A DNA stretch of 64,000 nt from Dokdonella sp. (GTDB lineage: Bacteria; Pseudomonadota; Gammaproteobacteria; Xanthomonadales; Rhodanobacteraceae): assembly GCA_016712865.1 (NCBI GenBank), contig JADJQH010000002.1:496001-560000 (forward strand), in the 5' to 3' direction. A program made the position numbers and the translations under genes. Every line of letters begins with the position of its first letter. Positions within the stretch are counted from its first letter, which is position 1. The notes under the pieces were generated by a model that did not search any database, was not told the DNA's origin, and saw nothing but the letters and a program-made list of their open reading frames with translations. Positions 12,402-41,248 of this stretch are shown here, one piece after another.

Positions 12402-14075
12402 TCATCCACCCGGGTCGAATCCGTTGCGGAAGATCACGTCGATTGGATAGGGGCTGCCCAGGTATTCCCAAATGTAGGAACTCAGTGTGATCGGCCCGCC
12501 GTAGAGGCCGTTGCCGGGCGCCGCGAATCCGCGCGCACCCGGTAGCCCGCCGCCGGAATAGGCGGCAAATTCCGCCTTGATGATGTTCTCGTTTGGCCAC
12601 GGCCACAGGCTGTCTTCGGGCCGGCCGTAACCATTCTCGGGGCTACGCTCCACGTTCCAGCCAGGTTCGCCGTAGAGGGTGCCGTCCAGGCCGATTTTCC
12701 AGAGCACGCGCGCGCCTACCCGGCCACCGTTGTCTCCGGCTGAGGCCAGCAACGAGCCCGGCTCGGGTCCGCGCGGCAGATAGCGAAGGCTTCCGCCAGG
12801 ATTGGCGATCGAGTAGAGAATGTTGTGGTTGGTGATGTCGCCCACGCCGGGATCCGATTGCGCGCCGCCATACGGGGCACCATTGCCGAAGAATGCGTTG
12901 TGATGGCCGTTGACGTACCCCGCCACCCCAAACGATTCGTTGGCGACGAAGATCGAGCTCTTCACCTCGTTCGGCCAGTCCTCGTTCAAGGCCAAACCGG
13001 TTCCCCACATGCCACCGGCGTTGGCAGGGTCGTAGACACCAGCGTTCTCGCCGGAGGTGATGTGGCTGACCTGCGGCCAGCTCGCCGGCAGGTTCTGGGA
13101 CGGAAAGCCCTGGATCTCCGTTTCGCCCTGCGCTCCCCAATATGCGCCGTTGCCGTCCCACCAGATGTTGTTGCTCATCTTCCGCGTGCCGGTGACGAGC
13201 CAATCCAGATGGGTGCCGTAACCAGCCTTGAAGTTGAGGACGATGTTGCCGTGAAACTCCTGGCTGGTATCGGGTGCTCGATCCGACTTGTTCTCGTTGA
13301 AGAACGCGGCATACAGACCGGAATGCCCGGGACAGCAGCCGGTGTTCGAGTCGATGGCGATGTTGTTCTGCCACACCGTGTTGACCGAGTCGTAGTTCGT
13401 GAACGCTGCCGCCTGCAGGGTTCCGATCCAGTAATCGTTGCGTGCCACGTTGCGACGAAAGACGACGTGATCCGCCCAATAGTTCAGAAACATGTAGCGA
13501 CTGCCGCCAAACGCGAAATTCTCCTCCACCAGCACGTAGTCGGAATCCACGCCAACCGCAACCGTGGATGAGTTGCCGGTCACCCCGGCATAGCCGAAGC
13601 CGTTGCGGATGATCTTGATGTGGTTGCTGTTTTCGATTGATACAGGCGCACCGTTTTCGTTGCCCTGGCTGAGATGCACGCGAAATCCGCGCACCTGGAT
13701 GAACTGCTTTTCGCGCAGGCGGATGCCGAAGGCGTACCCCGTCCATGCCGAGCCATCAATCAGCACACCGAAATCGTTTGCCGCGCGCACCGTCGTATAG
13801 ACATCGTCTGCCGTGCGCGGGATGCCATCCGGACCTGCATTGCCGGAGGGAACCGCATCGTAAATGGGATTGATCTCCGAATAGGTTCCGTCGGCCACGA
13901 TCAGGGTATCGCCCGCGACCATTTGACTGGCGCCGTAGGGAATCGTCCGGCAGGGTGAGGCCTGGCTGGTGCAGGCACCGCTGTTGACACCGGTGGTGGC
14001 AACAAAACGAGTGGCGGCATGCGAGTACATCGGAAACAAGCCCAGCACCACTGCCATCACGGACTTCGCACTCAT
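12402..14075 (-). CDS. Secreted right-handed beta-helix protein with C-terminal IFRNGFD tag
   Basis: About 557 residues with a Sec signal peptide (MSAKSVMAVVLGLFPMYSHA). The mature start RFVATTGVNSGACTSQASPC and GDTLIVADGTYSE are typical of parallel beta-helix proteins of the DUF1565/pectate-lyase-fold class, and later segments (NHIKIIRNGFGYAG, DYVLVEENFAFGG, DHVVFRRNVARND) are helix rungs. No catalytic residues can be assigned, so substrate and activity are unknown. The protein ends YPIDVIFRNGFDPGG, a terminal motif shared with other secreted proteins here (38 kb and 41 kb). It is convergent with the dehydrogenase gene; its 326-bp 5' region contains GGATCC-type repeats. Confidence 0.8.
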   Translation of the reverse strand: MSAKSVMAVVLGLFPMYSHAATRFVATTGVNSGACTSQASPCRTIPYGASQMVAGDTLIVADGTYSEINPIYDAVPSGNAGPDGIPRTADDVYTTVRAANDFGVLIDGSAWTGYAFGIRLREKQFIQVRGFRVHLSQGNENGAPVSIENSNHIKIIRNGFGYAGVTGNSSTVAVGVDSDYVLVEENFAFGGSRYMFLNYWADHVVFRRNVARNDYWIGTLQAAAFTNYDSVNTVWQNNIAIDSNTGCCPGHSGLYAAFFNENKSDRAPDTSQEFHGNIVLNFKAGYGTHLDWLVTGTRKMSNNIWWDGNGAYWGAQGETEIQGFPSQNLPASWPQVSHITSGENAGVYDPANAGGMWGTGLALNEDWPNEVKSSIFVANESFGVAGYVNGHHNAFFGNGAPYGGAQSDPGVGDITNHNILYSIANPGGSLRYLPRGPEPGSLLASAGDNGGRVGARVLWKIGLDGTLYGEPGWNVERSPENGYGRPEDSLWPWPNENIIKAEFAAYSGGGLPGARGFAAPGNGLYGGPITLSSYIWEYLGSPYPIDVIFRNGFDPGG

Positions 14076-14305
14076 GACGCCTCCTGGATGTTCGAGTTCA
14101 GGGCAATTCACCTCAGTCCGTGCGCAGAAAGCAACGGGGTCTGTGCCACATGAGTATCAAACCCGGATAGAGGGCAAATCGAACAATGCGCAGGCACACA
14201 AACCGGAATCATGGTCCGCTCCCTGCCACTGGCCCGTCATCCGTCGGTCTTGCAAGACGCGTTCGGCGAGCTGGCAAATCGCGGGCGTGCCGGTTTCGGT
14301 CTTCC

Positions 14306-14372
14306 TAGATCCTGGGTGTCCTGGATCCTCCTACGTGTCCTGGATCCTCCTCTGAATTCTCCTGGATCCTCC
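14306..14372. repeat. Short direct repeats around CCTGGATCCTCC
   Basis: Four spaced copies of a CCTgGATCCT-type unit lie within about 65 bp: CTAGATCCTGGG, GTCCTGGATCCTCCTACG, GTCCTGGATCCTCCTC and CTCCTGGATCCTCC. This is the only notable content of the 326-bp gap 14076-14401 between the beta-helix gene and the HNH-type gene; I see no gene in it. The repeats border the AT-richer gene at 14402-14977 and may mark a recombination or insertion edge, but no target duplication is visible. Confidence 0.6.
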
Positions 14373-14401
14373 ACGGACGTGTGCGGTTAAAGCGCGCGCG
14401 A

Positions 14402-14977
14402 CTAAAGCTTGTAAGTGACTATCTCGTCGGAACCAATGGAGATTTTGCCGACGGCCTGTAGTTGCTCAAGGACATACACAACCTGCGACGGCGTGAGCTT
14501 AAGGCTAGCGAGTGCCGCTAGCGTGGCTCTAAGTGACGAGAGGTGCTTGGGTCGGGCGTTACCACGAGACCTTAAGTTCTCGATGACCTTTATGATTATT
14601 TCCGGTGAGACTTCACTATGGCTCGCATGAACGGGCGCAGCTTTGGGTAGCTTGGCCTTTGGAGGATCCACAACCAACTTCACCTTGCCGGGTTGCTTCG
14701 CGGTTGGCTTTGACGGGTGATTGCTGGTTCCATTCGGGCATTTAAATTGACCTTTCTGGTTCAGCACTACCTTGATTTTTTCCTTAAGGGACATGCTGCC
14801 GAGCAGGGCATTCATGGCCTTGCAACAGGCAACGCAGTTGTCATCACTATTGCTCCCGGCACGCGAACTTGCCACCAGATGCTCAACGCTCGCTTCCGAC
14901 TTTGGAAGCGCAGCAGAGCAGAAGAAGCACAGGCCGCCTTGGGCGAACATGAGTCGATCCAGCGGCTTTGTTGGCAT
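14402..14977 (-). CDS. HNH-type zinc/endonuclease-like protein, function unknown
   Basis: 191 residues. The N-terminal 60 residues look like an HNH/zinc module: C17xxC20 (CFFC), E32-H33, N47-C48xxC51 and N56 (VEHLVASSRAG, DDNCVACCKAMN). After a Pro/Lys linker the C-terminal part (residues 120-191) resembles a winged-helix domain (LTPSQVVYVLEQLQAVGKIS). I chose the ATG at 14977 because AGAGGG precedes it. Composition stands out: the first 60 bases of the interval are 28/60 G+C against a clearly GC-rich background, suggesting recent acquisition. No methylase, integrase or toxin partner is next to it, so defence, mobile or housekeeping roles are all open. Confidence 0.65.
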   Translation of the reverse strand: MPTKPLDRLMFAQGGLCFFCSAALPKSEASVEHLVASSRAGSNSDDNCVACCKAMNALLGSMSLKEKIKVVLNQKGQFKCPNGTSNHPSKPTAKQPGKVKLVVDPPKAKLPKAAPVHASHSEVSPEIIIKVIENLRSRGNARPKHLSSLRATLAALASLKLTPSQVVYVLEQLQAVGKISIGSDEIVTYKL

Positions 14978-15197
14978 GGCACCCTCTAGCGGTGAAATTC
15001 CGCGGAACATCGGGAGAATCTAGGCGGAGAATCTCGGGACATCCAAGATCTCTATCTCAGACCGGAACAGTTCGAACAGACCAACGCTGCTTAGCCAAGT
15101 GTCCGAAAGACGGAGGGCTAGATCAATGTTTGGTCGATGAGCCTGCGCGTTCGGCAAACCGGCAAGCGGCGGTTGCGAGGGTGGCGTCCCTTGCCGC

Positions 15198-16667
15198 TCA
15201 ACGGATCAGTTCGTGCTCCAAAGTTGCGGCAGCGCAACTGGCGTTGATCTCGCTGTCCCAGTCTTCCATCAGCGCGATCAGCACCAGCTTCTCGAATTCG
15301 CGGGCGAAGCGGGTGGTCACGGCATCGGGGTCGCGCACGCGCTTGGCGTCGCCGATCAAACCGAAGTGCACGTTGCCGTTGTAACTGAGTATCGAAAGAC
15401 CGACACCGATGGAGCCGGATTGCGGCACCCAGAACATCAATTCGCTGACTTCCACGCCGGTCAGATACAGCGGCTGTTGCGGACCCGGAACATTGGTCGC
15501 CACCGTGGTGGCCTTGCGGCTGAACAACTCCAGCGCCGGTGCCTGCAGGGCTTGCGGCCCCATGCCGAGCGCAGCGAGCAGGCCCAGGGTGACGATGGCC
15601 TGGCGTGAACGCTTCAGCTCGCGCATGCAGGCACCGACACGTTCCAGGCGGCGCAGCGGATTGGCCTCGCCCACCGGCAACTCCAGGAATACCAGGCCGA
15701 AATGGTTGCCGAGTTTCTTCGCGTGCTCCAGGGGTCGCAGGTTGACCGGCACGGTGGCGCGAATGGTCAGGCCATCGACTTCGTCACCCTGATCGAGCAG
15801 ATAGCTACGCAGCGCACCGCTGGCACAGGCCAGCAACACGTCATTGACCGTGCAGCCGAGCGCGCGACCGAGGGTTTTCACTTCCTCAAGCGGCAGCGGA
15901 TCAGCCCAGGCTACGCGCTTGATCACGCCCAGCGGACCCTTGAGCGCGGTGTGCGGATCGTCCGACAGCAGCAGGGCATTGGCCAACTCGCGCGTGATCT
16001 CGCCGCCTTCACGCGCGACGTTTGCCGCCACTTCGGGATCGGCAATCATCTGCGCAATCTTCTCGAACACCTTGTTGCCGATCTTGAGAGCCTTGCCCAT
16101 GCCTGCCTGGGCCGGCTCCAACATGCGCTGCCAGAGATTGCCGCCGTCGCGCTTGAGCCAGGTCTTGGCCAGGTCCGCGTGTTGCTGCGGATCGGGCGCG
16201 GTATCGGTCAGCGAGAGCATCACCTGCACCAGGGCCAAGCCATCCGCGTAGCAATGATGGATGCGGGCGATGAGCACGCTGCCACCGCGGTAGTTCTCCA
16301 CCACATGGAATTGCCACAAGGGCTTGGAATGATCCAGCGGCGACGATGCCAGTTCGCCGACAAAGGTTTCCAGTTCCAGCTTGTCACCGGCGCCCGGCAA
16401 TGCGGCCAGGCGTACGTGCCAGTCCAGATCGAAGTCCGCGTCGGTTTCCCAGTACGCACCTGATGGCGTATTCACCGCCTTCTGACGGAAGCGCGGATAG
16501 GCAAGGAAGCGCTCGCCCAGCAATTGCTTGATCTTCGCGTGCTGCAACGGCGCGGCAAACATCAGCACGCCGGTGATCATCATCAGGTTGGTCGGTCGCT
16601 CCATGCGCAACCAGGCGGTATCCACCTTGGACATTGCCTCGCGCTTGGTGCTTGCTGACTTGGCCAT
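15198..16667 (-). CDS. Wax ester synthase / diacylglycerol acyltransferase (WS/DGAT) homolog
   Basis: Bifunctional acyltransferase family that makes wax esters or triacylglycerol from acyl-CoA. The catalytic HHxxxDG motif is intact at 137-143 (HHCYADG). The N-terminal DTAWLRMERPTNLMMI and PLWQFHVVEN segments and the C-terminal DUF1298-type region (VATNVPGPQQPLYLTGVEVS) complete the two-domain fold. 489 residues, usual for the family. I prefer the ATG at 16667 because GGGGATGA sits just upstream; one at 16673 is an alternative. Single gene, divergent from the alpha-2-macroglobulin gene. It implies neutral-lipid storage or lipid remodelling, but substrate cannot be read from sequence. Confidence 0.9.
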   Translation of the reverse strand: MAKSASTKREAMSKVDTAWLRMERPTNLMMITGVLMFAAPLQHAKIKQLLGERFLAYPRFRQKAVNTPSGAYWETDADFDLDWHVRLAALPGAGDKLELETFVGELASSPLDHSKPLWQFHVVENYRGGSVLIARIHHCYADGLALVQVMLSLTDTAPDPQQHADLAKTWLKRDGGNLWQRMLEPAQAGMGKALKIGNKVFEKIAQMIADPEVAANVAREGGEITRELANALLLSDDPHTALKGPLGVIKRVAWADPLPLEEVKTLGRALGCTVNDVLLACASGALRSYLLDQGDEVDGLTIRATVPVNLRPLEHAKKLGNHFGLVFLELPVGEANPLRRLERVGACMRELKRSRQAIVTLGLLAALGMGPQALQAPALELFSRKATTVATNVPGPQQPLYLTGVEVSELMFWVPQSGSIGVGLSILSYNGNVHFGLIGDAKRVRDPDAVTTRFAREFEKLVLIALMEDWDSEINASCAAATLEHELIR

Positions 16668-16865
16668 GCTCATCCCCGTTGGATTCACGCCCTGCCCGCC
16701 CACACATGCCGGCCACGCGAGGGTCCCCGGCAAGCATCCCGTTCGCCGCCGCAAAACGCAACGCCCGGGTGCAGGCGCATCGGATCAGGCAAATGCCGTT
16801 TCCTGCCCGAACTGCGCCAGATGGCGCCGCTATACTGGCGCCGAATGCCACAAGGGAAACAGGCC

Positions 16866-22094: not shown

Positions 22095-23087
22095 ATGAGC
22101 AAACCCCATCGCACCGATTTCACCTTCGAGCCCGACGACAGCGAGCGCTTGTCCAATCTGGTTGGCCCGCTGGACGAGCACTTGCGCCAGATCGAACTTC
22201 GCCTCGGCGTGGAGATCGCCAACCGTGGCAACGTGTTCCGCGTCAGCGGCGAGGAGCGCCCCGTGCAATTGGCCAGCCGCCTGTTGCATCGGCTCTACGC
22301 GCTCACCGAGGACAACACCTTGACCGCGGCGCAGATCAACCTGCACCTGCAGGAATCCGGCATCGAGGCCATCATCGACGAAGATGCGTCGTCGGCTCAG
22401 GAAGTCACGGTCAAGGTCAAGCGCGGCACCATTCGCGGGCGCGGACCCAACCAAGCGCGTTACCTGCACGCGATCGCCACCCACGACATCAATTTCGGCA
22501 TAGGCCCTGCCGGCACGGGCAAGACCTACCTCGCCGTGGCCATGGCCGTGGATGCGCTCAATGGCAATCGTGCGCAGCGCCTGATCCTGGTCCGCCCCGC
22601 CGTGGAAGCCGGCGAAAAACTCGGCTTCCTGCCCGGCGATCTCACCCAGAAGGTCGATCCTTACCTGCGTCCGCTGTATGACGCGCTGTACGAAATGCTC
22701 GGCATCGAGCGGGTAACCAAACTGATCGAACGCAATGTGATCGAGATTGCCCCGCTGGCCTACATGCGCGGACGCACGCTGAACGATTCCTTCGTGATTC
22801 TCGACGAAGCGCAGAACACCACCATCGAGCAGATGAAAATGTTCCTCACCCGCATCGGCTTCGGCTCCATTGCGGTGGTGACCGGCGACGTGACCCAGAC
22901 CGACTTGCCCAAGCACGTCAAATCCGGTCTGCGCGATGCCACCGAGGTGCTGCGCGATGTCGAGGGCATCAGCTTCACCTTCTTCAATTCACGCGACGTG
23001 GTTCGCCATCCACTCGTGCAACGCATCGTGCGTGCATACGAGGCGCGCGAAGATGCCCAGGAAAACAACAAGGGAAGCACGCCCTGA
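22095..23087 (+). CDS. PhoH family ATPase (PhoH-like, YbeZ)
   Basis: P-loop ATPase linked to RNA metabolism and ribosome maturation with YbeY. 330 residues. An N-terminal KH-like region (residues 30-110) precedes Walker A GPAGTGKT (137-144), the PhoH signature LVRPAVEAGEKLGFLPGD and Walker B LDEAQ (236-240). I chose the ATG at 22095 because MSKPHRTDFTFEP is where family similarity starts; the open frame upstream is repeat sequence. Its stop overlaps the start of the next gene by one base (TGATG). PhoH and ybeY are normally adjacent; here a secreted-protein gene lies between them. Confidence 0.95.
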   Translation: MSKPHRTDFTFEPDDSERLSNLVGPLDEHLRQIELRLGVEIANRGNVFRVSGEERPVQLASRLLHRLYALTEDNTLTAAQINLHLQESGIEAIIDEDASSAQEVTVKVKRGTIRGRGPNQARYLHAIATHDINFGIGPAGTGKTYLAVAMAVDALNGNRAQRLILVRPAVEAGEKLGFLPGDLTQKVDPYLRPLYDALYEMLGIERVTKLIERNVIEIAPLAYMRGRTLNDSFVILDEAQNTTIEQMKMFLTRIGFGSIAVVTGDVTQTDLPKHVKSGLRDATEVLRDVEGISFTFFNSRDVVRHPLVQRIVRAYEAREDAQENNKGSTP

Positions 23088-23950
23088 TGACTCGCATTGC
23101 CCTGCTCTACTCGTTCCTGCTCGCTGCCTGGCCGCTTGCAGGCGCGGCGCAGACATTGAATGGCCCGGAAAGCATCGAGTACCACCCACGCCTTGATCGC
23201 ACCCTGGTCAGCAACACCAATGGTGGCAACATCCTGGCTCGCGCCAGCGATGGAAGCCTGAGCGTGTTCACCTCCGCACCGGGAAACCCATACGGCATTG
23301 AGCTCTTGGCCGGCACGCTGTTCGTGCTCGACTCCGGATTCATCCGTGGCTACGACATCGATTCGGCCGTGCAGGTCATGAATCTGCAAATGCCAGGAGC
23401 CGGATTTCTCAATGGCATCACCTCCAACGGCATCGACACCCTGTACGTCACCGATTTCACCAACCAAACCATCACCGAGGTGGATGTCGGCGATCTCGAA
23501 AACCCGGCAATCGGCACTCCCGTTTCCACCAATTCATCAACTCCCAACGGCGTGGTGTTTGATCGCGCGCAGAATCGCCTGCTGATTGCCACCTGGGGCG
23601 GCAGCGCCAAAGTCCTTTCCCTGGATCCCGTCACCAGCACCACGCCGGCGATATTGATCCAGACCACGCTGAGCAACATCGACGGTATTGCCCTGGACTG
23701 CAACGGTGCCATCCATGTGGCGGCATGGAGCAGTTGTGGCGCCAGCGGCGGTTGCCTGCGTCGCTTCGATCCCCCATTTACCCTCAACTCTCCGGCTCAA
23801 GTCGTCGCCAATGGGCTGTCCAGTCCAGCCGACATCGATTACGGCCATAGCACCGGCAACATCGCGGTACCGCAATTTGGCAACAACACGGTCAGCTTCC
23901 ATGCCACGGGCTGCGAAGCGGCGATTTTTGCCGGCGACTACGAGCGCTGA
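23087..23950 (+). CDS. Secreted NHL/SMP-30-like beta-propeller protein between phoH and ybeY
   Basis: 287 residues with a signal peptide (MTRIALLYSFLLAAWPLAGA, then AQT). Repeated blades such as YHPRLDRTLVSNTNGGNI, NGITSNGIDTLYVTDFTNQT and NGVVFDRAQNRLLIATWGG are typical of NHL/SMP-30-type six-bladed propellers. No catalytic or metal ligands could be assigned, so binding rather than catalysis is as likely. The C-terminus CEAAIFAGDYER resembles a diverged form of the IFxxGF(D/E) tag found on three other secreted proteins in the window. The gene overlaps phoH by one base and ends 7 bp before ybeY, so it is embedded in a conserved cytoplasmic operon although the product is exported. Confidence 0.8.
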   Translation: MTRIALLYSFLLAAWPLAGAAQTLNGPESIEYHPRLDRTLVSNTNGGNILARASDGSLSVFTSAPGNPYGIELLAGTLFVLDSGFIRGYDIDSAVQVMNLQMPGAGFLNGITSNGIDTLYVTDFTNQTITEVDVGDLENPAIGTPVSTNSSTPNGVVFDRAQNRLLIATWGGSAKVLSLDPVTSTTPAILIQTTLSNIDGIALDCNGAIHVAAWSSCGASGGCLRRFDPPFTLNSPAQVVANGLSSPADIDYGHSTGNIAVPQFGNNTVSFHATGCEAAIFAGDYER

Positions 23951-28970: not shown

Positions 28971-31097
28971 TCACGTACCTTCTGCTGCCTGCTTGCGCTC
29001 CGCCTTCCAGCGTTCGTAGGCGGTTTTCATCGCCTTGAAGCGTGGTTCCTCGCGCAGCGAGTCAAACCCGGGCACCACGGAAAGGCTGGCGTAGGCGAAC
29101 GGTCCGACCATTTGCACTACCACGTCGAGGTGGTGCAAGGCACGTTCTGCATCCCCGGCGCGCGCGAAGGCGACGGCCAGGGCGGCGCGGCGCGATGAAT
29201 CCGCCCAGGCGTCCTTGGGCGCGTTCTCGAGGTAGTCGTTTTCGGCCGCGCGAACGCCAGCCAGATCAGCCATCAAACCGGGCAGCTGGCAGGGAAAATA
29301 GAAGTAGCCGCCACTGGACGACCAGCCGCCAGGATAGGGCTTGTCGAGCTTGTCCAGGCGCGCCTTGATCTCGGCCAGGCGCTGCTTGCCTTCTTTTGCA
29401 CGACCCATCGCCAGCAAGCCTTCGGCCTCTGCCATCGCATAGGTTTCCGGATAGTCCGGAACCTGGCGCAGGGCTTGCGGCCAGAGTTCAAGCGAAAGGG
29501 CACGCTGGATGCGCTGCGGATCGCGGCTGGCGATGGCAATCTGGAACGGCAGCGAGGCAAAAAACTCGTTCGGCCCCTTCACTGCGGCCCAGGCCGCTTC
29601 CACGTTGCCGCGCATCAATTCGCTTTCCGCGCTGAACATGTTGACGTCCTGGCCCAGTTCCGCAAGGCGCTTGTAGATGGGCGCGGCTTCTTCATCACGG
29701 CCCAGACTGAGCAGGGTATTGGCCACTTCCAGCATGATGTCGGTGTTGAGCGGGTCCAGTTCCAGCGAGCGTCGCAGCGCCTTGACGCAATCATCGAAAC
29801 GCCCATCCCGACGCGCAACCAGTCCACGCGCATACCAGGCCTCGGCCAGTTCGGGAGCCCGTTCGAGGACGCGCGCCAGAGTGGCCTCGGCGCTGTCGTA
29901 ATCGCGACTGCCCCAGTAGTAGATGTAGGCCTGGGCCAGCCAGGTTTCCATGGCTTCCGGGGCCAGCCTGCGCGCCTGCTCCATCGATACGATGGCGGCA
30001 TCCCGGGATGACACATCGCTGAAGCCGTACCAGTAACTGGTCAGCTGGGCGCGCACCTTGCGCGACCAGGCATCCGCAAACTGCGGATCCAGCGCAATTG
30101 CTCGGTCGAACTGCTGGATCGCCGACTGCATGCGCTCCGGTGTTGCCCGATCCAGCGCCGCCAGCAACTTGCCCTGCAGGAATGCTTCATAAGCCTGCAG
30201 GTTGTGGGTCGACCCGCTCGCCAGCGTGCTCGCCTCGGCCGAGCTCAGCACCAGCTTCATGGCATTGGCGATGGCCTTTGCGATGTCCGCCTGTATCTCG
30301 AACAGGGTTTCGGTATTGAGCGCGCGATCGTAGATTTCCGCCCACAGGTGCACATCGGTGTTGCCGTCGATCAACTGCACGTTTACGCGCACCTGGTCGC
30401 CGGAGCGTTGCACCGCACCTTCAAGCACCACGGCGGCGCCCAGCTCTTGCGCAATTTCAGGAATCGAGAGCTTGCTGTCGACGTAATGCATCATCGACGT
30501 GCGCGAGATCACCTTGAAGCCGGCGACCTTCGACAATTGGGTAAGCAGGTCGTCGTGGATGCCTTCGACAAAATACTCATCCCCGGTGGCTGCACTGCGA
30601 TTGCGGAAGGGCAGGACGGCAATCAGGTCCCGGTTCGAAGACGACGCTTGCGTGACCTCCGCCTTCGTCGCTGCGCCAAATTGTGTCGCAAGAAAAAACT
30701 TGTCCACGGCGAAGTACACCAGCGCCACCAGCAGGACGACGATGATGGTGCGGTCCAGGCGTCGCGCCGTTTGTGCCGATGCGACTTTCTCGTCGGCCGA
30801 AGCATCGCTTCTGCGCGCACGTCGATCGACACCCGAGTACGTGGATCTGCGTTCGGACAGTTCATCCTCACGACGCAAGCCTTGCGGGGTCAATTCGAAG
30901 ACCCAGGAAATGACCAGGGTGGGGATGAAGCCGATGGCCAGCAGGATCACCACGGCGCGCGCCATCCAATCCGGCGCGCCGAAGATCGGCAGCACGGTGC
31001 CGGCTACCTGGGTGGCCAGCCATGCACCCACCAGGTACAACCCGGCCATGCGGATCACGTTGCGGCGCTTGAGTTCTCCGAAGAAAGTCGTGCTCAT
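28971..31097 (-). CDS. Membrane-anchored TolB-like/TPR protein (paralog 1)
   Basis: 708 residues. N-terminus FFGELKRRNVIRMAGLYLVG leads into TM helix 1 (about 15-35), a second helix (45-70) ends in FELTPQGLRRED, and a third lies near 130-150. The following domain (LIAVLPFRNRSAATGDEYF, VEGIHDDLLTQLSKV, VISRTSMM, VNVQLIDGNTDVHLWAEIYD) is the TolB/FlgO-like module often attached to transcriptional or cyclase outputs, and the C-terminal half is TPR-like (AEAWYARGLVARRDGRFDDC). No DNA-binding or catalytic output domain is recognised. I chose the ATG at 31097 because the family begins there. It is divergent from the toxin-antitoxin pair. Function unknown; sensing or scaffold roles are guesses. Confidence 0.8.
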   Translation of the reverse strand: MSTTFFGELKRRNVIRMAGLYLVGAWLATQVAGTVLPIFGAPDWMARAVVILLAIGFIPTLVISWVFELTPQGLRREDELSERRSTYSGVDRRARRSDASADEKVASAQTARRLDRTIIVVLLVALVYFAVDKFFLATQFGAATKAEVTQASSSNRDLIAVLPFRNRSAATGDEYFVEGIHDDLLTQLSKVAGFKVISRTSMMHYVDSKLSIPEIAQELGAAVVLEGAVQRSGDQVRVNVQLIDGNTDVHLWAEIYDRALNTETLFEIQADIAKAIANAMKLVLSSAEASTLASGSTHNLQAYEAFLQGKLLAALDRATPERMQSAIQQFDRAIALDPQFADAWSRKVRAQLTSYWYGFSDVSSRDAAIVSMEQARRLAPEAMETWLAQAYIYYWGSRDYDSAEATLARVLERAPELAEAWYARGLVARRDGRFDDCVKALRRSLELDPLNTDIMLEVANTLLSLGRDEEAAPIYKRLAELGQDVNMFSAESELMRGNVEAAWAAVKGPNEFFASLPFQIAIASRDPQRIQRALSLELWPQALRQVPDYPETYAMAEAEGLLAMGRAKEGKQRLAEIKARLDKLDKPYPGGWSSSGGYFYFPCQLPGLMADLAGVRAAENDYLENAPKDAWADSSRRAALAVAFARAGDAERALHHLDVVVQMVGPFAYASLSVVPGFDSLREEPRFKAMKTAYERWKAERKQAAEGT

Positions 31098-31161
31098 GGC
31101 TGCTGATGTTCCCGGATGCCGACTCTTGAAGCAGGTGGTTGCGACTTGACCGTTCCGCATG

Positions 31162-31182
31162 ATATGGCATAACATGCCATAT
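31162..31182. promoter_or_regulatory. Perfect palindrome over the tumE start: probable autoregulatory operator
   Basis: ATATGGCAT-AAC-ATGCCATAT is a perfect 9-bp inverted repeat whose last bases are part of the tumE ATG (31181). TTGACC (31146-31151) and TAACAT (31170-31175, 18-bp spacing) resemble a sigma-70 promoter that would start transcription at about the ATG, which would make the message nearly leaderless. The palindrome overlaps the -10 region, a placement suited to repression by the HTH antitoxin. Promoter and operator functions are inferred from position only. Confidence 0.6.
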
Positions 31183-31471
31183 GGCAAAGGCAATGCTGCT
31201 GTTTTCCGACCGGCAGGATTTCAGTGACGGCGGCATTGTCGAAATGAAGATCTGGAAATTGCCGGAGTCGGACGCCGAGCGGCCGCATGGGCTGAAGTAT
31301 CGGCTGTTCTACGGTCATGGCGGAATTCGGATCGTCGGTTACGACAACGAACGCGGCAAGGGCGACCACCGCCACATCGGGCGGAGGGAGTCGGCGTACG
31401 AATTCGAGAGCGTGGAAAAGTTGATCGCGGATTTTCTCGCCGACGTTGCGCGATACCGAGGTGACGCATGA
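31181..31471 (+). CDS. TumE-like toxin (DUF6516 family)
   Basis: 96 residues, matching the TumE pattern: an N-terminal LLFSDRQDFSDGGIVEMKIW, LPESDAERPHGLKYRLFYGH, then the hallmark VGYDNERGKGDHRH and ESVEKLIADFLADV. The family is proposed to be an RNase-like toxin with an HTH antitoxin. The ATG at 31181 lies inside a palindrome, leaving no Shine-Dalgarno; an ATG at 31193 preceded by AAAGG is the alternative, but family members keep the residues before it. The stop overlaps the antitoxin start (ATGA). Toxin first, antitoxin second, as in known tumE-tumA pairs. Confidence 0.85.
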   Translation: MAKAMLLFSDRQDFSDGGIVEMKIWKLPESDAERPHGLKYRLFYGHGGIRIVGYDNERGKGDHRHIGRRESAYEFESVEKLIADFLADVARYRGDA

Positions 31472-31927: not shown

Positions 31928-33784
31928 TCATGGCGGCCTCGTCGCTGCTGGTTCCAGGCCACACCCGAAATCAGTCTCGCTCAGCGGCCGGCAGATGGCG
32001 GGCCAGCCTTTCTCTCGCCAATAGGCGACGAAGCCGTATTCGACGAGCTTTTCCTTGACGCGCGGATCGCGCAACATCGCGTGGCCGGCCGGCCTGCTGA
32101 TCAATAGTCGCGAAAAGTAGTACTGCTTCGCCGCTACGCCCGTGGCTTCGACATAGGCGTCGTAACGAGGCACATCCCCGTGCAGGATTTGATAGTACCC
32201 GCCGAAAGACACACCAAGCAGCGCAGCGTCCACCTGGGTCGGGTCGACGCCCGGTTTGCGCAGTGCCCATGACAAGGCGATTTCGTGCTGCTTCACCCAC
32301 TCGGGTCGTGCTGCTCGCAACTTCGCCAATGCGGTACGCGCCTCATCCGCGCGCCCCTGAGACAAAGCATAGATATAAGGCAGGGTCTTGCCGAATCCTG
32401 TGTCGGGAGACAGACTGCGCAGCTTCGAGGTGATCATCTCGATGTCGGCGCGGCGATCCCGTGCCATCGCCACCTCGCGCATGCGAACCCATCCGATGAT
32501 GAAATAGGGGTCGAGCTTCACCAGTTTTTCGGATTCGTGCGCAGACTCTTCCACGCGACCGACCAGCGCCAACAATTCTGCATAGTCTTCGAGACCATCC
32601 GGGTAGCCAGGATCGAGCTGGATGGCGCGCAGGTAGTGTCGTTCCGCCTCCGCGAAGCGCAGGCGCGAGCGCGCCATATTGGCCAGGGCGTGTTCGCTGG
32701 CCGCGGAATCCGGATCGAGCTCGGCGGCGCGTTCGGCCCCTTCGGCTTCGCAAGCCAGACCCTGCTGCTGTTCCGCCGAAGTCAGCACACTGTTGGCAAA
32801 CCAGGCCTCACAAGCCAGCGACAGCGACGACCAAGCCGCTGCCAGTGCCGGCGCTTTCTCCGTCGCCGCACGGAAATGCGTGATCGCCGTTGGCATGTCC
32901 TTGCGCGCACGCAGCAGGGCACGGCCTTTGAGGAATTCATCATAGGCGGTCGGATCGATCGCGCTACGCGCCGTTCCGGGCGGCGAAACCACCAGCGACG
33001 CCACCAGTTGCTCACCAATGCGAGTCGCGATCTCGTCCTGCAACGCAAACACGCTGTCGAGCCGGCGGTCGTAGGTTTCCGACCAGACGTGGAAGCCGTC
33101 GGATACCCGCACCAATTGCGCGGTGATGCGCACCTGCTCGCCCTCGCGGCGGATGCTGCCCTCGACGATGTGGCCGACGCCCAGCTTGCTGCCGATCTCG
33201 CGCACGTCGCCGCTCTTGCCCTTGAACTGGAACACCGAAGTGCGCGCCACCACCTGCAGCTTCGGCACTTTCGCCAGCACGTTCAGCAGTTCCTCGGTCA
33301 TGCCGTCAGAGAAATAGTCCTCGTCGGGTTTCCCGCTCATGTTGGCAAACGGCAGCACGGCAATGGATTTTGCCTCCGTCGGCAACAGGGTGGCGTCGAG
33401 CGTCGGCGCTGTCGCCGCGAACGTCGTTTCGGGTTTCGGTGACAGCACGAACTTGTCCACCGCGAAGTAACTCAGCGCCAGCACCGCCAGCATCAGGAAA
33501 ACCCGCTCCATCCGACGCGCCGTCTGCGGGGCGATGGATTGCTCCGTCGGCACCTCGGCATCGCGTTTGATGCCCTGCGGCGTCAGTTCGAACACCCAGG
33601 AAAACACCAGCGCCGGGATGAAGCCGATCGCCAACACCAGGATCACGCCTCGCAGGGCCCAGCCCGGCAACTCGAAAGCAGGGAAAATCGTGCTGGCCAC
33701 CTGGACGATCAGCCATGCGCCCACCAGATACAACCCGGCCATGCGGATCACGTTGCGGCGGCGCAGTTCGGCGAGGAAGTTCAC
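31928..33784 (-). CDS. Membrane-anchored TolB-like/TPR protein (paralog 2)
   Basis: 618 residues, GTG start at 33784 with GGAGG in front, overlapping the stop of the preceding gene (GTGA). Same architecture as paralog 1: NFLAELRRRNVIRMAGLYLV, two N-terminal TM helices ending FELTPQGIKRDAE, a third TM segment (MERVFLMLAVLALSYFAVDK), a TolB/FlgO-like module (SIAVLPFANMSGKPDEDYFS, DGMTEELLNVLAKV, QVRITAQLVRVSDGFHVWSE) and TPR-like repeats (PGYPDGLEDYAELLALVGRV). No output domain is seen. It is the third gene of a tight operon with two single-span membrane proteins, which suggests the three act together. Confidence 0.82.
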   Translation of the reverse strand: MNFLAELRRRNVIRMAGLYLVGAWLIVQVASTIFPAFELPGWALRGVILVLAIGFIPALVFSWVFELTPQGIKRDAEVPTEQSIAPQTARRMERVFLMLAVLALSYFAVDKFVLSPKPETTFAATAPTLDATLLPTEAKSIAVLPFANMSGKPDEDYFSDGMTEELLNVLAKVPKLQVVARTSVFQFKGKSGDVREIGSKLGVGHIVEGSIRREGEQVRITAQLVRVSDGFHVWSETYDRRLDSVFALQDEIATRIGEQLVASLVVSPPGTARSAIDPTAYDEFLKGRALLRARKDMPTAITHFRAATEKAPALAAAWSSLSLACEAWFANSVLTSAEQQQGLACEAEGAERAAELDPDSAASEHALANMARSRLRFAEAERHYLRAIQLDPGYPDGLEDYAELLALVGRVEESAHESEKLVKLDPYFIIGWVRMREVAMARDRRADIEMITSKLRSLSPDTGFGKTLPYIYALSQGRADEARTALAKLRAARPEWVKQHEIALSWALRKPGVDPTQVDAALLGVSFGGYYQILHGDVPRYDAYVEATGVAAKQYYFSRLLISRPAGHAMLRDPRVKEKLVEYGFVAYWREKGWPAICRPLSETDFGCGLEPAATRPP

Positions 33785-34551
33785 CGTGCCGCCTCCGGGG
33801 CACTGCGCGCCAGCATGTCCCGCAACATCGGCTTGTAGTTGCCGACGACGTTCAAAGCCACGCCCTGGTTGGCGACCCAGAAGCGCAGTTCGGGCAACAG
33901 CCGCGGATCGGCCAGATAGCCCGCGAGCACCACGTCTGCTTCGGCTTCGCTGATCGGGGCATCGCAATCCAGCAGCTGCTGTTCGACCGTACTCGGCTGC
34001 TTCCAGCACTTCGCCCAGATGTGGTCGGCGACCACCTGTGGCGTCAGCCCGCGCACAATCTCGCGGTATTCCGGTTGCATGGCGAACAGGTAGGCGGTAC
34101 CCGAACCGTTCTCAAGGTAATAACTGGACATCGCATCGCGCAAGACCTGGTCGCGAACCAGACCCAATTCGCCACCGCTGCGCATTTCCTGGTAGGTGGA
34201 ATCCGAACTGACCCATTGCCAGAGCTGGCTGGCCTGATAGAACGCGAGCACGGTCTTCCATGCGGAACCATCAACCCGTTCTCCGGATTCGGCAAAGCGG
34301 ATCGCCTGTTTTCCATGTTCGATCACTTCACTCCAGAACACTTCGCGACGCCCGATCGAGCGCAGGTCCGATTCGAAGTTGCCACGGATGCGGACCAGGT
34401 ACGCGTCGGCCTTGATGCCCTCCACGCGCTGCTCGTTCCAGTTGCTGACCTGGATACCGACAAAGACGCCAAGCACGACGATGACGAAGTCGATGAAGAT
34501 CGCGGTCCATTCCTGTCGTCCGAAGTGCTGGATCACGCGGCGCAAGAGCAT
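33781..34551 (-). CDS. Single-span membrane protein of DUF6090-like type (paralog A)
   Basis: 256 residues. The N-terminus MLLRRVIQHFGRQEWTAIFI and TM helix (about 16-36, VIVVLGVFVGIQV) followed by SNWNEQR matches the pattern of DUF6090-type proteins. The rest is a helical soluble domain, probably periplasmic, with conserved STYQEMRSGGELGLVRDQVL shared with paralog B, and two cysteines (KCW, DCD). No catalytic motif is seen. It overlaps the TolB-like/TPR gene downstream by 4 nt and lies 51 bp after paralog B. Function unknown. Confidence 0.78.
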   Translation of the reverse strand: MLLRRVIQHFGRQEWTAIFIDFVIVVLGVFVGIQVSNWNEQRVEGIKADAYLVRIRGNFESDLRSIGRREVFWSEVIEHGKQAIRFAESGERVDGSAWKTVLAFYQASQLWQWVSSDSTYQEMRSGGELGLVRDQVLRDAMSSYYLENGSGTAYLFAMQPEYREIVRGLTPQVVADHIWAKCWKQPSTVEQQLLDCDAPISEAEADVVLAGYLADPRLLPELRFWVANQGVALNVVGNYKPMLRDMLARSAPEAAR

Positions 34552-36055: not shown

Positions 36056-36112
36056 CACCAGACAAGGTCGGCTCAACAGGAGCGCGCGCACGTAACCTGG
36101 GGGTGCTCGACA

Positions 36113-39100
36113 CTACTCGAAGCCGTGGGCGAAGATCAGGTCATTGCTGGTGCAGGACTGGATGCGGAAATCATCGAGATAGAAGCCGTCCGGCACACGA
36201 CCGGTAGAGGCATCGGTGGCGACCCTGAAGCGGAATTGCACGGTTTCGCCGGCATGTTCGGCGATGTCGATGATGGTGCGCGACCAGTCGCGCGGATCAC
36301 CGCACCAGGCGAGCTTGCCGCCTGCCGGATTGTCGAACGAGGTGCTGATGAACCCGTCGTACGGGCCGATAAGGATCCGCGACGCAGGCACTTGCTCCCA
36401 ACTCTTGCCCTGGTCAGTGGACATTTCCACAAACGCTCCGTCGTAACAGCCGCCCAGCCGGTTCTCGAGAAACTGATGGCTCCAGAATTCCATGCTCAGC
36501 GGTTGCTGATCAACGGGCAACTCGATGGGCGGGGACACGAGGAACTGGTTGGAGTCGTAGGCCAGGTCCTGGGCGCGATACGAGTGTCCGGCGCCGCGTG
36601 CGCGGTCCGTGGTCAGGCTCCAGCTGTCGTGGTCGCCGTAGTGGCTCCACGCGCCTGCTCCGCTTTCAAAATCCTCGGCGAACACGCTGCTGGCAAGCGT
36701 TCCGCCCGGGCATTCGCCCGGTGGTGGCACGGTGACAAAGGAAAACACCTGGGTGAGCGGGCTTTCCCCGCAGGCGTTGATTGCGCTTACTCGCCAGTAG
36801 TAGCGGGTGGCATGCGCCAGCGGCGTGGCCACTTCGTGTGAATCCGCGTTGGTGCTCGCGGAGTAGATGATGTTGGCAAAGCCCGCGTCCAGCGCGAGCT
36901 CAACGCGATACTGATCAACATTGGGCATGGCGGTCCAGTGCAGCAACGGCTGCAGGGCCTGGTTGAGCGACGCATCCGCGGGTTGCACGAGATTCGCGGC
37001 AGCCGGATTGTCCGTAGCCAGTTGCAGCTGCACATGTCGGGTGCGTGCAAGCGATCCGGATTCGGCACGGATCGCCAGCCGGTAGCGCCCTTCCGCTGCG
37101 CCGGTCAGATTGCCGATTTCAAGTGTGCCCGTGCCGGGCACGGCCATGGGGTTGGCGTTGAATGTCGTTGTGGTGCCCGCAGGGGCACCCGCCACCGACA
37201 GCGCAAGTGGCGCGGAGAATCCGAGAATCGATGCGCTGCGCAGCGCGTAGGTGGCCGATGCGGAATCCTGCGTGCACAGGTTGTGCAATGCGGGTGTGAC
37301 ATCGAGCGCAAAACCGGGTGCCTTTGCGCAGTTGACGCAAACCAGCGCGAAATCCTGGTCGGTGGCATCACCATTGCCGGGCAGTCCGTCGCCTGCGATG
37401 TTGAATCCGCGCACGCTGAGGGTGAAGCTGGACAAGGGTCCGGGCGGCAGGTAGATCGCTTCCACGGTGTTGACCGCATCCGGCGCGCCGCCAGGGACAC
37501 TCCATGCACCGCTGAAGCGATTGCCGCGCCACAACGTGGATGCCGATTCCAGCTCAAGATCCAGGTTGTTCACCTGCGGGCTGGTGCCCACCGCACCCGG
37601 CGCGTCGGTCCAGGTCAACACGACACGCAGGGGCTTGGACGCATCGGCACGCTGGATCGGCGTGCTCCACAACTGGCCCGAGTCGCCCAGGATCTGCGAC
37701 TGGTCAAGCAACCAGGTCGGCGTGGCATCGAACAGGCTTTGCATGTTCGGCATGCCGAAACCTTGCGCGTTGCTCGGCAGCGTGTCGTTGCCGTCCTTGC
37801 CGGTGAGATAGGTCGGGTGCGCGATCAACCAGGCCTTCATCAGGGCAGGCGACGGAACCGCTGGTGCACCCGATTCGAACTCCAGGCTGCCCTGCCCGGT
37901 CGCCAGCCACCACCACGACAGCGACGCGATCGCGGATACCGCAGGCGCGGCATGGCTGGTGCCTGAGGATGCCGCGTAGGTTTCATTGCCTTGCGGATGC
38001 GTGGCATCGCAGATGCCGAGCCCGCTGGCCGGGTGTGCCTGGGTTCCGATCACGTGCGTGCCGGGCGCAACCAGATCGGGCTTGACCCGACCACCCGGCG
38101 CCGGACCGCGCGAGGAAAAGAACACGATGTCCATGGCGTGGTCGGCCGAGTCAGGCGCCACCAGGCAACCGTCATTCCAGAGTCCGTTCTCGTCTTCGGG
38201 GCGCGCATTTTCCGAAGCACCCACGGTGATCATGTTCTTGCCATTGCCCGGCGTGCCGATGGTGCCCGCCCAGGAACCGTCATTGCCCGCAGAGAAAATC
38301 GTGATGAGCTGCTGGTTGCCAGCGGCCTTCGGATCCGCGTCGCGCACGCCGGCATCGTAGGCCTGCGAGGAAAGATCGTATTGGCCGGCACACGGTCCGC
38401 AACCCCAGGAGTTCGACGAGATGCGCGCACCTGCGGCATGACTCGCAGCAATGACGCCGGCATTGGTTCCGCCGCATGCGCTCAGATCGAACCCGGGCGC
38501 AAAGATGCGCGTACCGCCAAGGCGTCCGAATGGATTGATGCCCTGCGCCACCTGGAAATCAGCGGGAAAGCGCGCACCGGGTGTTTCCGAATTGCCACGC
38601 TGGTCGAAGCCCAGCGCGATGTTGGCGTTCAGATGGCCATGTCCGCCGACCACACCGGTTTTCATCGTGCAGTGCTGGTTGAACACCATGCGCGTGGGAT
38701 TCTTCAGATCACCGAACTGATGCAGGGTGGGATCGCCGGTCTGCACGCTGCCCGTACCGACGCCGTCGTCGGTAATGTCGAGCACGGGATAGTCCAGCGG
38801 ATCATCCGGAAAGCCCAAAGCCTGCAACCAGGGCAGGTAGCCTGGCCCGGCAGGTCCGGACTGATCGGCATTGAAATGCCCGCGCAGGATCTGCGCCTGC
38901 ACTTCGTCATTCAGGCTGGGCTCGCGGTACTCCTCGACCCAGAGCACGTCCGACAACTCGATCAGTTCGCGAATCTGCGCAGGCGTGGCCTCGAAGCGCG
39001 CGACGTCGAATCCGGCCTGCGAAGAGAAATCGTCGACGGGCTTGAGTCCGAGTGCCATGAAACGTGCGCGACTGCGCGCAGGGTCATCATTGCGCACCCG

Positions 39101-39661
39101 CTGCACGATGATTGGAATGACCACCGCCTCTGTGCTGGCGTCCTGCACGCGCGCAAACAAGGTATTGCCCAACTTGATGAAACCCGGCAGGGGTTGGCTG
39201 AACTGCAGTTCGCCGCCCTGATGCATTTCCGCAAGCCGCGCGCGAGCGGCGGCGTCTGCCCACACCAGGTAGCCATTGCTCTCGATGTACTGCACCGGCA
39301 CTGCGCCGGCCGCCCGCAGCTGGTCGAGCCAGGCCTGCCTGATCGGACCCGCAAACTGCACCACATGCAAGGCCGCGCCGCTCGGCGCACGCAGGGCAAA
39401 ACCTTCCGGTGCCCGCCACTGCTGTGTCCGTGTGTCAATCCGCTGCCGATCAAAGTGCAACACGCTGGCGTCGGCCAGAGTCCAGGCGCGCTCCGGCATG
39501 GCCGCCGCATCGCCCTCGTACAGGCGATACGATCCGTAGTCCGCGATCAGGCGGAAATCCGCCGGCACGGCGATGCCCTGCGGCACCGCGATGTTGTCAG
39601 CCTGCGCAGCTCGGGCGAGGGCAACCAGGATGGCGGCGGCAAGGACGGCAGGCGTGCGCAT
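36113..39661 (-). CDS. Secreted subtilisin-like (S8) serine protease with IFAHGFE C-terminal tag
   Basis: About 1,182 residues with a Sec signal (MRTPAVLAAAILVALARAAQ). The catalytic triad is complete: Asp in VLDITDDGVGTG (about residue 295), His in GVVGGHGHLNANIALG (about 338) and Ser in SSGTSHAAPAVSA (about 565). Downstream come a jelly-roll P-domain-like region, a fibronectin-III-like domain (QPLLHWTAMPNVDQYRVELA), and a lectin/MAM-like module (VFAEDFESGAGAWSHYGDHD). The last residues are SNDLIFAHGFE. Start at 39661 is the best signal-peptide start, though no clear Shine-Dalgarno precedes it. Divergent from the beta-helix gene across a 285-bp region. Likely an extracellular or cell-surface protease. 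Confidence 0.88.
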   Translation of the reverse strand: MRTPAVLAAAILVALARAAQADNIAVPQGIAVPADFRLIADYGSYRLYEGDAAAMPERAWTLADASVLHFDRQRIDTRTQQWRAPEGFALRAPSGAALHVVQFAGPIRQAWLDQLRAAGAVPVQYIESNGYLVWADAAARARLAEMHQGGELQFSQPLPGFIKLGNTLFARVQDASTEAVVIPIIVQRVRNDDPARSRARFMALGLKPVDDFSSQAGFDVARFEATPAQIRELIELSDVLWVEEYREPSLNDEVQAQILRGHFNADQSGPAGPGYLPWLQALGFPDDPLDYPVLDITDDGVGTGSVQTGDPTLHQFGDLKNPTRMVFNQHCTMKTGVVGGHGHLNANIALGFDQRGNSETPGARFPADFQVAQGINPFGRLGGTRIFAPGFDLSACGGTNAGVIAASHAAGARISSNSWGCGPCAGQYDLSSQAYDAGVRDADPKAAGNQQLITIFSAGNDGSWAGTIGTPGNGKNMITVGASENARPEDENGLWNDGCLVAPDSADHAMDIVFFSSRGPAPGGRVKPDLVAPGTHVIGTQAHPASGLGICDATHPQGNETYAASSGTSHAAPAVSAIASLSWWWLATGQGSLEFESGAPAVPSPALMKAWLIAHPTYLTGKDGNDTLPSNAQGFGMPNMQSLFDATPTWLLDQSQILGDSGQLWSTPIQRADASKPLRVVLTWTDAPGAVGTSPQVNNLDLELESASTLWRGNRFSGAWSVPGGAPDAVNTVEAIYLPPGPLSSFTLSVRGFNIAGDGLPGNGDATDQDFALVCVNCAKAPGFALDVTPALHNLCTQDSASATYALRSASILGFSAPLALSVAGAPAGTTTTFNANPMAVPGTGTLEIGNLTGAAEGRYRLAIRAESGSLARTRHVQLQLATDNPAAANLVQPADASLNQALQPLLHWTAMPNVDQYRVELALDAGFANIIYSASTNADSHEVATPLAHATRYYWRVSAINACGESPLTQVFSFVTVPPPGECPGGTLASSVFAEDFESGAGAWSHYGDHDSWSLTTDRARGAGHSYRAQDLAYDSNQFLVSPPIELPVDQQPLSMEFWSHQFLENRLGGCYDGAFVEMSTDQGKSWEQVPASRILIGPYDGFISTSFDNPAGGKLAWCGDPRDWSRTIIDIAEHAGETVQFRFRVATDASTGRVPDGFYLDDFRIQSCTSNDLIFAHGFE

Positions 39662-39946
39662 GGTCGGGGTCAGGGCTCGTGCAAAGGTGCCGCGTGGCAG
39701 CATCCGGCGCTGTCGCGCCGCGGTCAAGCAAATTGACAGGGCAAGCTGCCCTCGAACAAGCGATTGCCTTCCGCGCCGGCCCGGACGACGGCTGCTCCAT
39801 CCACGGCAGGTCCCGTCCTTATGCCTTTGCCGCGTATCGCCAACAGCGTCACGCAATCGGAATGCGAACACCATTGCGCGCGCCGCCCGCGCTTGCCAAT
39901 CTAGCCGTTTGGACGTCCATACTTCCGTTGCGATGAGGAGCCCGAA

Positions 39947-41248
39947 GTGCACAACTCCCGGATCAACACGACAAGAACCGGTGCGCTGGCTGCACTCCCT
40001 GCCATCGCCCTGCTTGCCGTACTCGCCATTTCAGCCGCCCTGGCTGCACCGGACTCCAGCGGACGGCAGGTGTTGGGTGTGGGCAGTTGTGCTGCCGCGG
40101 CAGTTCAACAAGCCATCAACGATGCGCCCGATGGTGCCATCGTGGAGTTGCCCGCAGGCAATTGCGACTGGGGCTCGACCGCGGTCACCTACGCCAGGGA
40201 CCGCAGCATCTGGCTGCGCGGTGCAGGCATCGGCAATACGGTGATCCGCCGAACCGGCGCTTCCGGCAATTCGTTTGCGCTGACATTTGATTGCAGCCAG
40301 GCTAACCGGGTGGAACTTTCGGACATCACGTTTATCGGCCGCCACACCAGCACACTTGATGGCGGCGTGCGGCTGACCAACAGCTGTCGGGACTTCAAAC
40401 TGCACGACCTGCACCTGAGCGGCTTCACCGCGTCGGCGCTGGAAGTTCGCGACACATCGTTCGGCACTGCGCCCTATTCACGCGGCGTGGTCTACGACAG
40501 CCGCTTCGATTCCTGCTTCAACCCTGGCTCGCCCAGCAACGGCGAAGGCTACGGAATCGTCGTCTACGGCAGTCACAACGTGGTTCCGCTTGACTTGGGC
40601 AGCGCCGAAGCCGTGTTCATCGAGGACAACCATTTCGAGGAAAACCGCCATTCCATCGCATCCAACTACAGCTCGCGCTACGTTGCGCGCCACAACACCC
40701 TGATCACCACCAACACCACGCGCAACACCTCGATGATCGATGCGCACGGGCGGCAGAACGGGTCCGACCGCGGCTCACGCAGTTGGGAGGTCTACCAGAA
40801 TCACCTGATCTACCGGGGCAACCAGTACTGGGCCGACGGTATCGCCATGCGCGGCGGGGATGGCGTGATCTGGGGCAATCTCATCGATTTCGATGGCGAT
40901 ACGGAAATCGGCATTGCCTACAGTGCGCAACTGGTCATCGAGGAGCCCCAATGTCCGGACTATCCCGGCGACGGCCAGCCGCCAGAACAGGTTCCCGGCT
41001 CGCCCTACCCGGTCCCCGACCAGACCACCCAGGCCTGGATCTGGGACAACGCCCATGTCTGGGCCGATGGCAATGCCAACGGCTATGACGAGCTTCGCGT
41101 CACCGACTACGGCGGCTGGGATTGCCGCTTCTACATCCAGGAAGATCGTGACTACCACCTGGGCCCGAAGCCTGGCTACCAACCCTATACCTACCCACAT
41201 CCCCTGCGCGGCAGCACCGACACCATCTTTGCCGACGGATTCGACTGA
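39947..41248 (+). CDS. Secreted parallel beta-helix protein with IFADGFD C-terminal tag
   Basis: 433 residues, GTG start at 39947 with GAGGAG 7 bp upstream. A signal peptide (ALPAIALLAVLAISAALAAP) is followed by VGSCAAAAVQQAINDAPDGA and VELPAGNCDW, typical of pectate-lyase-like helix entry sequences, then rungs such as NSCRDFKLHDLHLSGFTASA and VFIEDNHFEENRHSIASNYS. A lyase active site is not evident. The protein ends STDTIFADGFD, the same tag as the protease and the other beta-helix protein. Single gene, followed by uvrA after 137 bp; divergent from the protease gene. Confidence 0.82.
   Translation: MHNSRINTTRTGALAALPAIALLAVLAISAALAAPDSSGRQVLGVGSCAAAAVQQAINDAPDGAIVELPAGNCDWGSTAVTYARDRSIWLRGAGIGNTVIRRTGASGNSFALTFDCSQANRVELSDITFIGRHTSTLDGGVRLTNSCRDFKLHDLHLSGFTASALEVRDTSFGTAPYSRGVVYDSRFDSCFNPGSPSNGEGYGIVVYGSHNVVPLDLGSAEAVFIEDNHFEENRHSIASNYSSRYVARHNTLITTNTTRNTSMIDAHGRQNGSDRGSRSWEVYQNHLIYRGNQYWADGIAMRGGDGVIWGNLIDFDGDTEIGIAYSAQLVIEEPQCPDYPGDGQPPEQVPGSPYPVPDQTTQAWIWDNAHVWADGNANGYDELRVTDYGGWDCRFYIQEDRDYHLGPKPGYQPYTYPHPLRGSTDTIFADGFD

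Follow-up and report, generated by a model that had tools for sequence, protein, structure and literature searches.

Three secreted proteins encoded in a 64,000-nucleotide stretch of a Dokdonella sp. genome (GenBank assembly GCA_016712865.1, contig JADJQH010000002.1, positions 496,001 to 560,000 of the forward strand; the whole stretch is called the window here) end in the peptide IFxxGF(D/E). This peptide belongs to a nine-residue motif whose consensus is D-x-[ILV]-F-x-[DNH]-G-F-[DE]. The view that the motif is a sorting tag is strongly supported: it recurs on dozens of unrelated exported proteins, and its abundance across the order tracks the presence of a second type II secretion system (T2SS), termed T2SS-A and recognized by its GspD protein, GspD-A. 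On balance, and with modest confidence, we favor the view that T2SS-A reads the tag in the periplasm as a portable linear sorting signal.

The genome of the window (G000; 3.75 Mb in 8 contigs) contained 63 matches to the DNA pattern for IFxxGF(D/E) and none to the reversed control pattern. When all 63 were read in context, 55 lay within 12 residues of a stop codon, 22 of them directly at the stop; residues follow the motif in the remaining 33, all of which end within 11 residues. Neither a transmembrane helix nor a basic tail follows the tag in any of these 55 terminal members, in agreement with an earlier note on this DNA. Although the search pattern did not specify it, Asp occupied position -2 (counted from the Ile) in 47 of the 55; Ala was found at +2 in 27, and Asp, Asn, or His at +3 in 50. 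Every Ile, Phe, and Gly codon is used among the terminal tags, which, together with the unsought Asp and the bias at +3, points to selection on the tag at the protein level. Once their tails had been removed, the 54 tagged proteins fell into 34 BLAST clusters, bearing out the claim that the carriers are unrelated.

A profile of the tag separated members from background. The weakest of the 55 members scored 19.4, and 272 of 280 untagged C-termini scored 4.0 or less. Scores of at least 10 were reached by 8 of the 280 untagged C-terminal 30-mers as against 5 of 3210 internal 30-mers, a comparison that the earlier note had proposed. In the fetched neighborhoods, the profile revealed six further genes with C-terminal near-tags (IFADDFE, IFANDFD, IFADGYE, IFDDNFD, IFRNEFE, and FILASGFE), with a gap in score from 14.2 to 4.0 between these and the rest. 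The anticipated enrichment in signal peptides was also seen, with 44 of 52 tagged proteins predicted positive relative to 92 of 280 untagged neighbors; the predictor, like the gene finder, was home-made, and it is crude. In one locus of another genome (L093 of G071, minus strand, approximately 1461-1520), a tandem double tag, NLIFCHGFDVVPTDLIFRDGFEDRNC, stands before the stop at the end of a single protein.

A T2SS of any kind was rejected as the partner of the tag: GspD was matched in all 52 chosen genomes, and the link is therefore with one GspD clade, GspD-A. These matches suggested an extra GspD in the tag-rich genomes. In 19 other tag-rich genomes, GspD-A was 43-85% identical to the G000 copy; the figure was 46% for G129 and 49% for a GspD-A fragment in G114. 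Other GspD proteins were at most 30% identical to GspD-A, with one from genus g31 at 36%. In a GspD tree, for which the program issued a long-branch warning, the GspD-A rows grouped together (92/87), with the g31 protein adjoining and the Xps-type proteins far away. The intermediate, g31-like type was found in sixteen genomes of the order, which had 0-1 tags.

At least five tags, counting both of the spellings described below, were present in 57 of 61 genomes with GspD-A, but in only 7 of 113 without it (Fisher p ~6e-33, with descent ignored), consistent with the earlier suggestion that a transport system might co-occur with the motif. This table covers 174 of the 176 genomes that are at least 95% complete; seven genomes with partial GspD-A matches had been labeled as fragments by hand, and the two of these that reach 95% completeness were left out. 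Counted by genus (at least 90% complete), the figures were 29 of 32 with GspD-A vs 5 of 40 without. For a split within families, all genomes were used at the same threshold, and GspD-A fragments were counted as present. At least five tags were then found in 6 of 7 genomes with GspD-A vs 2 of 45 without in family f1, in 2 of 2 vs 0 of 51 in family f2, and in 29 of 29 vs 3 of 4 in family f9. Of the four f9 genomes without GspD-A, G019 (100% complete) also lacks tags, and the other three are fragmented assemblies.

Orthologues of a single carrier family followed the same division. All 38 copies of endonuclease I (PF04231), found in 28 of 54 genomes, were read. At least one tagged copy was present in each of the 18 GspD-A genomes that have the enzyme, a result that shows orthologues acquiring or losing the tag together with the system, in a sample that is not independent since these genomes had been chosen beforehand as tag-rich. 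The tag takes the strict form [ILV]FxxGF[DE] in 14 of them and a near form in four (G150, G002, G003, and G037). By copy, 21 of 28 in GspD-A genomes were tagged, six were untagged, and one extends beyond its locus; in the 10 genomes without GspD-A, all 10 copies lacked the tag.

Genus g28 at first seemed to break the rule, having GspD-A but few IFxxGFE ends. A looser terminal pattern yielded seven ends in this genus (IFADRFE, IFEDRFE, IFSDRFE, VFRDRFE, IFSNRFE, IFADRFD, and LFHDRFE), plus three spurious short frames. The variant pattern IFx(D/N)(R/S)F(D/E), built from these ends, was counted over all 250 genomes of the order. Ten of the 12 g28 genomes with a completeness of 95% or more contained 7-44 matches, G183 three, and G089 none, with the control at 0; f1 and f2 genomes without GspD-A contained 0-2. 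Genus g28 thus spells the tag IFx(D/N)RFE, and is a counterexample in appearance only.

The T2SS-A locus has the order gspC-gspD-gspE, with gspE present in 20 of 21 loci, and in some lineages a GspF-like open reading frame (ORF), recognized by eye, comes next. In G000, gspGHIJK, each scoring above its NCBIfam cut-off, lie apart from this locus at 509.7-512.9 kb of contig C8. GspE-A scored above its own cut-off, and GspC-A just below that of TIGR01713 (98.3 vs 101.6). The predicted structure of GspC-A (mean pLDDT 73.7) comprises a transmembrane helix, an HR region, and a PDZ domain, and its closest PDB matches are the EpsC PDZ, the PulC PDZ, and the GspC HR. The other T2SS of G000 is Xps-like, with XpsF and XpsN among its best matches, both below curated cut-offs.

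The proposal that the motif always stands at the extreme C-terminus held for most matches but not for all. Among the non-terminal matches in G000, two lie close behind a signal-peptide-like start (C3:146929 and a DUF1800 protein at C8:1313314), one between the peptidase part and later domains of its protein (C2:16393), one (C2:1222911, L068) 90 residues ahead of a hydrophobic, basic-ended stretch at the C-terminus, two at distances of 21 and 27 residues from the protein end, one inside the window's subtilisin-like protease, and one in a short spurious frame. The end of the L068 protein resembles an exosortase-type tail, yet PF09721 had no match in G000. DUF1800 proteins end in a conserved domain of their own, and several of those in GspD-A genomes have the tag immediately behind the signal peptide. 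We fetched 40 upstream regions from 86 DUF1800 matches in T2SS-A genomes, and a strict-pattern tag was present in at least seven (G037, G000, G005 twice, G237, G110, and G015), a lower bound because several frames were picked wrongly; two further N-terminal tags, IFADAFE (G163) and IFRDTFE (G091), were recognized by eye. In 17 DUF1800 loci from genomes without GspD-A, three of whose frames look misread, the tag was found at neither end. A position near the mature N-terminus was also seen in L078 and L083, two of 30 loci read from across the order. That either end can carry the tag favors a docking peptide over C-terminal processing.

The tagged proteins include, by Pfam, metzincins, subtilases, GH44, endonuclease I, DUF1501, GSDH, BNR, and others. 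Among the families listed (25 of 41 for NCBIfam and 25 of 59 for Pfam), the largest share held by a single family was 8 of 54 tagged proteins in NCBIfam, for choice-of-anchor Q, and 6 of 54 in Pfam; as none listed covers more, we conclude that neither collection has a family for the tag itself. NCBIfam also matched families whose members bear rhombosortase or myxosortase signals, and choice_anch_J was matched by two of the 54. One carrier, a DUF1501 protein, has a Tat-type start. Its 11 closest relatives (65-97% identity; an unclassified bin at 97% and Dokdonella records at 82-83% are the nearest) share the tag, and two more distant ones lack it. In an AlphaFold model of a tagged DUF1501 protein the tail has a pLDDT below 50, but the mean for the model is only 58.9, and it is therefore uninformative on the tail.

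Cargo of T2SSs arrives through Sec or Tat and is already folded when secreted, which fits a reading of the tag by such a system. In the mechanism we propose, carriers would first reach the periplasm through Sec or Tat, and the folded substrate would display the tag as an exposed peptide. Asp, Asn, or His followed by Gly is the usual pair of a type I' beta-turn, and the tag may accordingly form a tiny hairpin. A periplasmic part of T2SS-A would bind it, the candidates being the PDZ domain of GspC-A and the N-domains of GspD-A, and the bound protein would be recruited for passage through the outer membrane. That T2SS-A is the reader we infer from co-occurrence. The broadest form of the proposal, in which one nine-residue peptide usable at either end is a universal portable signal read by a dedicated T2SS on dozens of unrelated folded substrates, spelled GFE in most lineages and RFE in g28, is more tentative, and we put it slightly below an even chance.

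Signals described for other T2SSs offer a partial precedent. According to two articles, what decides secretion is a short, exposed part of a folded periplasmic protein (loop 3 of PelI and loops of Pel3, or the Ig-fold of VesB), and GspC, through its PDZ domain, and GspD are involved and bind substrates (PMC7949064, PMC12369372). A nine-residue loop of PelI contacts both GspC and GspD, and common linear sequences are apparently absent (PMC7949064); secretion of VesB depends on the PDZ domain (PMC12369372). The tag differs from all of these in being one linear peptide common to dozens of unrelated proteins.

Three other sorting systems invite comparison, and the likeness to a sorting tag that the earlier note drew survives only in part: the tag is a portable element on exported proteins, while its N-terminal and between-domain occurrences argue against processing of the PEP-CTERM kind. 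GlyGly-CTERM, read by rhombosortase, is likewise a C-terminal tag of the many-to-one kind, carried by unrelated exported proteins (PMC3237569); unlike it, the present tag has no transmembrane helix or basic cluster and also occurs at N-termini. Rhombosortase was rejected as the partner, since TIGR03902 scored above cut-off in two of 52 genomes, both tag-poor (G111 and G053); a match in G150 fell just under it (80.1 vs 84 bits). PEP-CTERM, the signal of exosortase, is also a sorting tag found through a shared C-terminus, with at least 20 per genome, but the tripartite architecture with a PEP-like motif was absent from the tails of all 63 matches. Exosortase was rejected as well, PF09721 being absent from 8 of 21 tag-rich genomes, G000 included. 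The exosortase-like proteins that were found are short (most frames approximately 170-260 residues, with weak PF09721 matches; for example, L328 of G091), and may belong to a distinct sorting system whose history is similar. Signals of type IX secretion are folded domains that span roughly 70-80 residues. Compared by architecture, this system too combines a signal peptide with a C-terminal signal lacking a transmembrane helix; the tag, at about nine residues and also at N-termini, is unlike such a domain.

Several observations weigh against T2SS-A as the reader. Family f8 lends the association no support: at least five tags were present in 3 of its 7 GspD-A genomes and in 11 of the 32 that lack GspD-A. 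G063 (17 matches, 97% complete) and G097 (10, 98%) have no GspD-A, and the L199 frame of G097, a long one, ends in VIFMNNFE. Conversely, G230, G017, G082, and G089 have GspD-A yet only 0-3 matches. Without GspD-A, 6-7 matches were found in G240, G248, G077, and G112, and 75 in G123, whose assembly has approximately 530 contigs. No GspF, GspL, or GspM of T2SS-A could be located in G000. Tagged genes are not clustered at T2SS-A, with three tags in 21 loci; in G000, three tagged genes lie approximately 5-14 kb beyond gspE, and other clusters of tagged genes exist too. PF09721 is commoner in tag-rich (13 of 21) than in tag-poor genomes (2 of 30), and also occurs in G129. Four families were tried as partner (GspD, rhombosortase, exosortase, and, in the genome of the window, GspG), and the same pattern would arise for any gene whose losses fell in the same clades as those of T2SS-A. 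As a separate observation, G063, G097, and other f8 genomes contain 6-17 tag-like matches without detectable GspD-A, which may reflect another reader or a divergent T2SS.

The strongest of the alternatives, though still an unlikely one, is that the tag retains proteins at the surface, T2SS-A or another route exporting them and the tag docking to a surface receptor lost in the same clades as T2SS-A. Relatives of the tagged proteins are often anchored, to judge from the matches to choice-of-anchor Q and to families with rhombosortase or myxosortase signals, and the co-occurrence of tag and GspD-A would be expected here as well. Secretion and surface attachment are not distinguished by the present data. 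No receptor candidate was found, however, and endonuclease I, subtilases, and metzincins are typical secreted cargo that need not stay on the surface.

Less probable again is a sorting signal read by another machine, with which T2SS-A merely shares a history of loss. The association is one between clades, exosortase shows that further genes can be partly associated with the tag, and the f8 matches without detectable GspD-A would be accommodated. Such a machine would nevertheless have to mirror GspD-A inside both f1 and f2, in the endonuclease I orthologues, and in g28, the genus that seemed an exception until its RFE spelling was recognized. PDZ proteases read C-termini, and a short terminal peptide on exported proteins could in principle be a recognition or cleavage site of a periplasmic protease, as a degron or maturation signal; the N-terminal tags, the residues that follow the motif in 33 of 55 members, and the co-occurrence with T2SS-A make this very improbable. 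Least credible is a functionless relic, either the first strand of a MAM/choice-of-anchor-J-like jelly roll (FxxDFESG...W) or a duplicated stub, for which an internal SSVFAEDFESGAGAW stretch resembling the tag in the window's subtilisin-like protease and the two choice_anch_J matches might be cited, but the jelly-roll domain and its FESG...W continuation do not follow the tag in terminal members, and unconstrained relics would not keep I, F, G/R, and F over whole secretomes; across the 34 clusters the tag is strongly conserved as protein, with codons free to vary, and its spelling can be specific to a lineage.

Docking of the tag to T2SS-A would bear on the choice of cargo by T2SSs, an open question in the field, to which a shared linear tag would add a new form of substrate signal. 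If so, substrate recognition would become directly testable through the tag, a candidate system, a spelling variant, and pairs of tagged and untagged orthologues; secretomes in this order could be read from sequence alone; and the tag might serve as a portable export label.

Within the order, tag counts are very uneven. Over 250 genomes, tallied by DNA pattern (context was read for the 63 G000 matches and the 30 order loci), they reached 49-63 in the genus of the window and 24-69 in three other genera of its family, against 0-7 in the remainder of that family; in f2, two genera had 22-30 and the others 0-4, and f9 had up to 96. In 24 of the 30 loci the tag stood no more than 12 residues from the stop, and three of these 24 have frames shorter than 80 codons. 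In a sample of the class (276 genomes, 272 outside the order and 4 of it), counts were 0-13 and near the control in most genomes. Within the sample searched, the tag thus appears specific to one order; the suggestion that it is typical of that order is upheld by the background level outside it, and inside the order its occurrence is patchy. A small excess over control was noted in G466 (13 vs 2), G326 (10 vs 0), and G423 (8 vs at most 1), a possible minor occurrence beyond the order. A literature search found no publication on the tag, and the matches to the tag string appear unrelated, judging by title.

In the window itself, the earlier note had placed the motif on four proteins, of which three stand, all with signal-peptide-like N-termini by the crude predictor. 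A beta-helix-like secreted protein (12402..14075, minus strand; start MSAKSVM) ends in VIFRNGFD-PGG, its tag, IFRNGFD, lying at 12414..12434 with Asp at -2 and PGG before the stop (tail through stop, 12434-12402). The subtilisin-like secreted protease (36113..39661, minus strand; start MRTPAVLAAAIL) ends in DLIFAHGFE, with the tag, IFAHGFE, at 36116..36136, directly before the stop (36136-36113). A second beta-helix-like secreted protein (39947..41248, plus strand) ends in DTIFADGFD, and here too the tag, IFADGFD, at 41225..41245, directly precedes the stop (41225-41248). The in-frame IFAPGFD inside the subtilisin ORF (38486..38506, minus strand), 790 residues upstream of its end, looks like a chance match: position +3 is Pro, and the Asp at -2 is missing. 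The fourth protein, propeller-like (23087..23950, plus strand) with the tail IFAGDYER (23924-23950), was rejected as a carrier because its profile score of 0.3, as against at least 19.4 for the 55 members, is at background. Between these genes, two neighboring ORFs on the minus strand (28971-31220 and 31928-34111) share a membrane stretch of the same type (ILAIGFIP...ISWVFELT) and are apparent paralogues.

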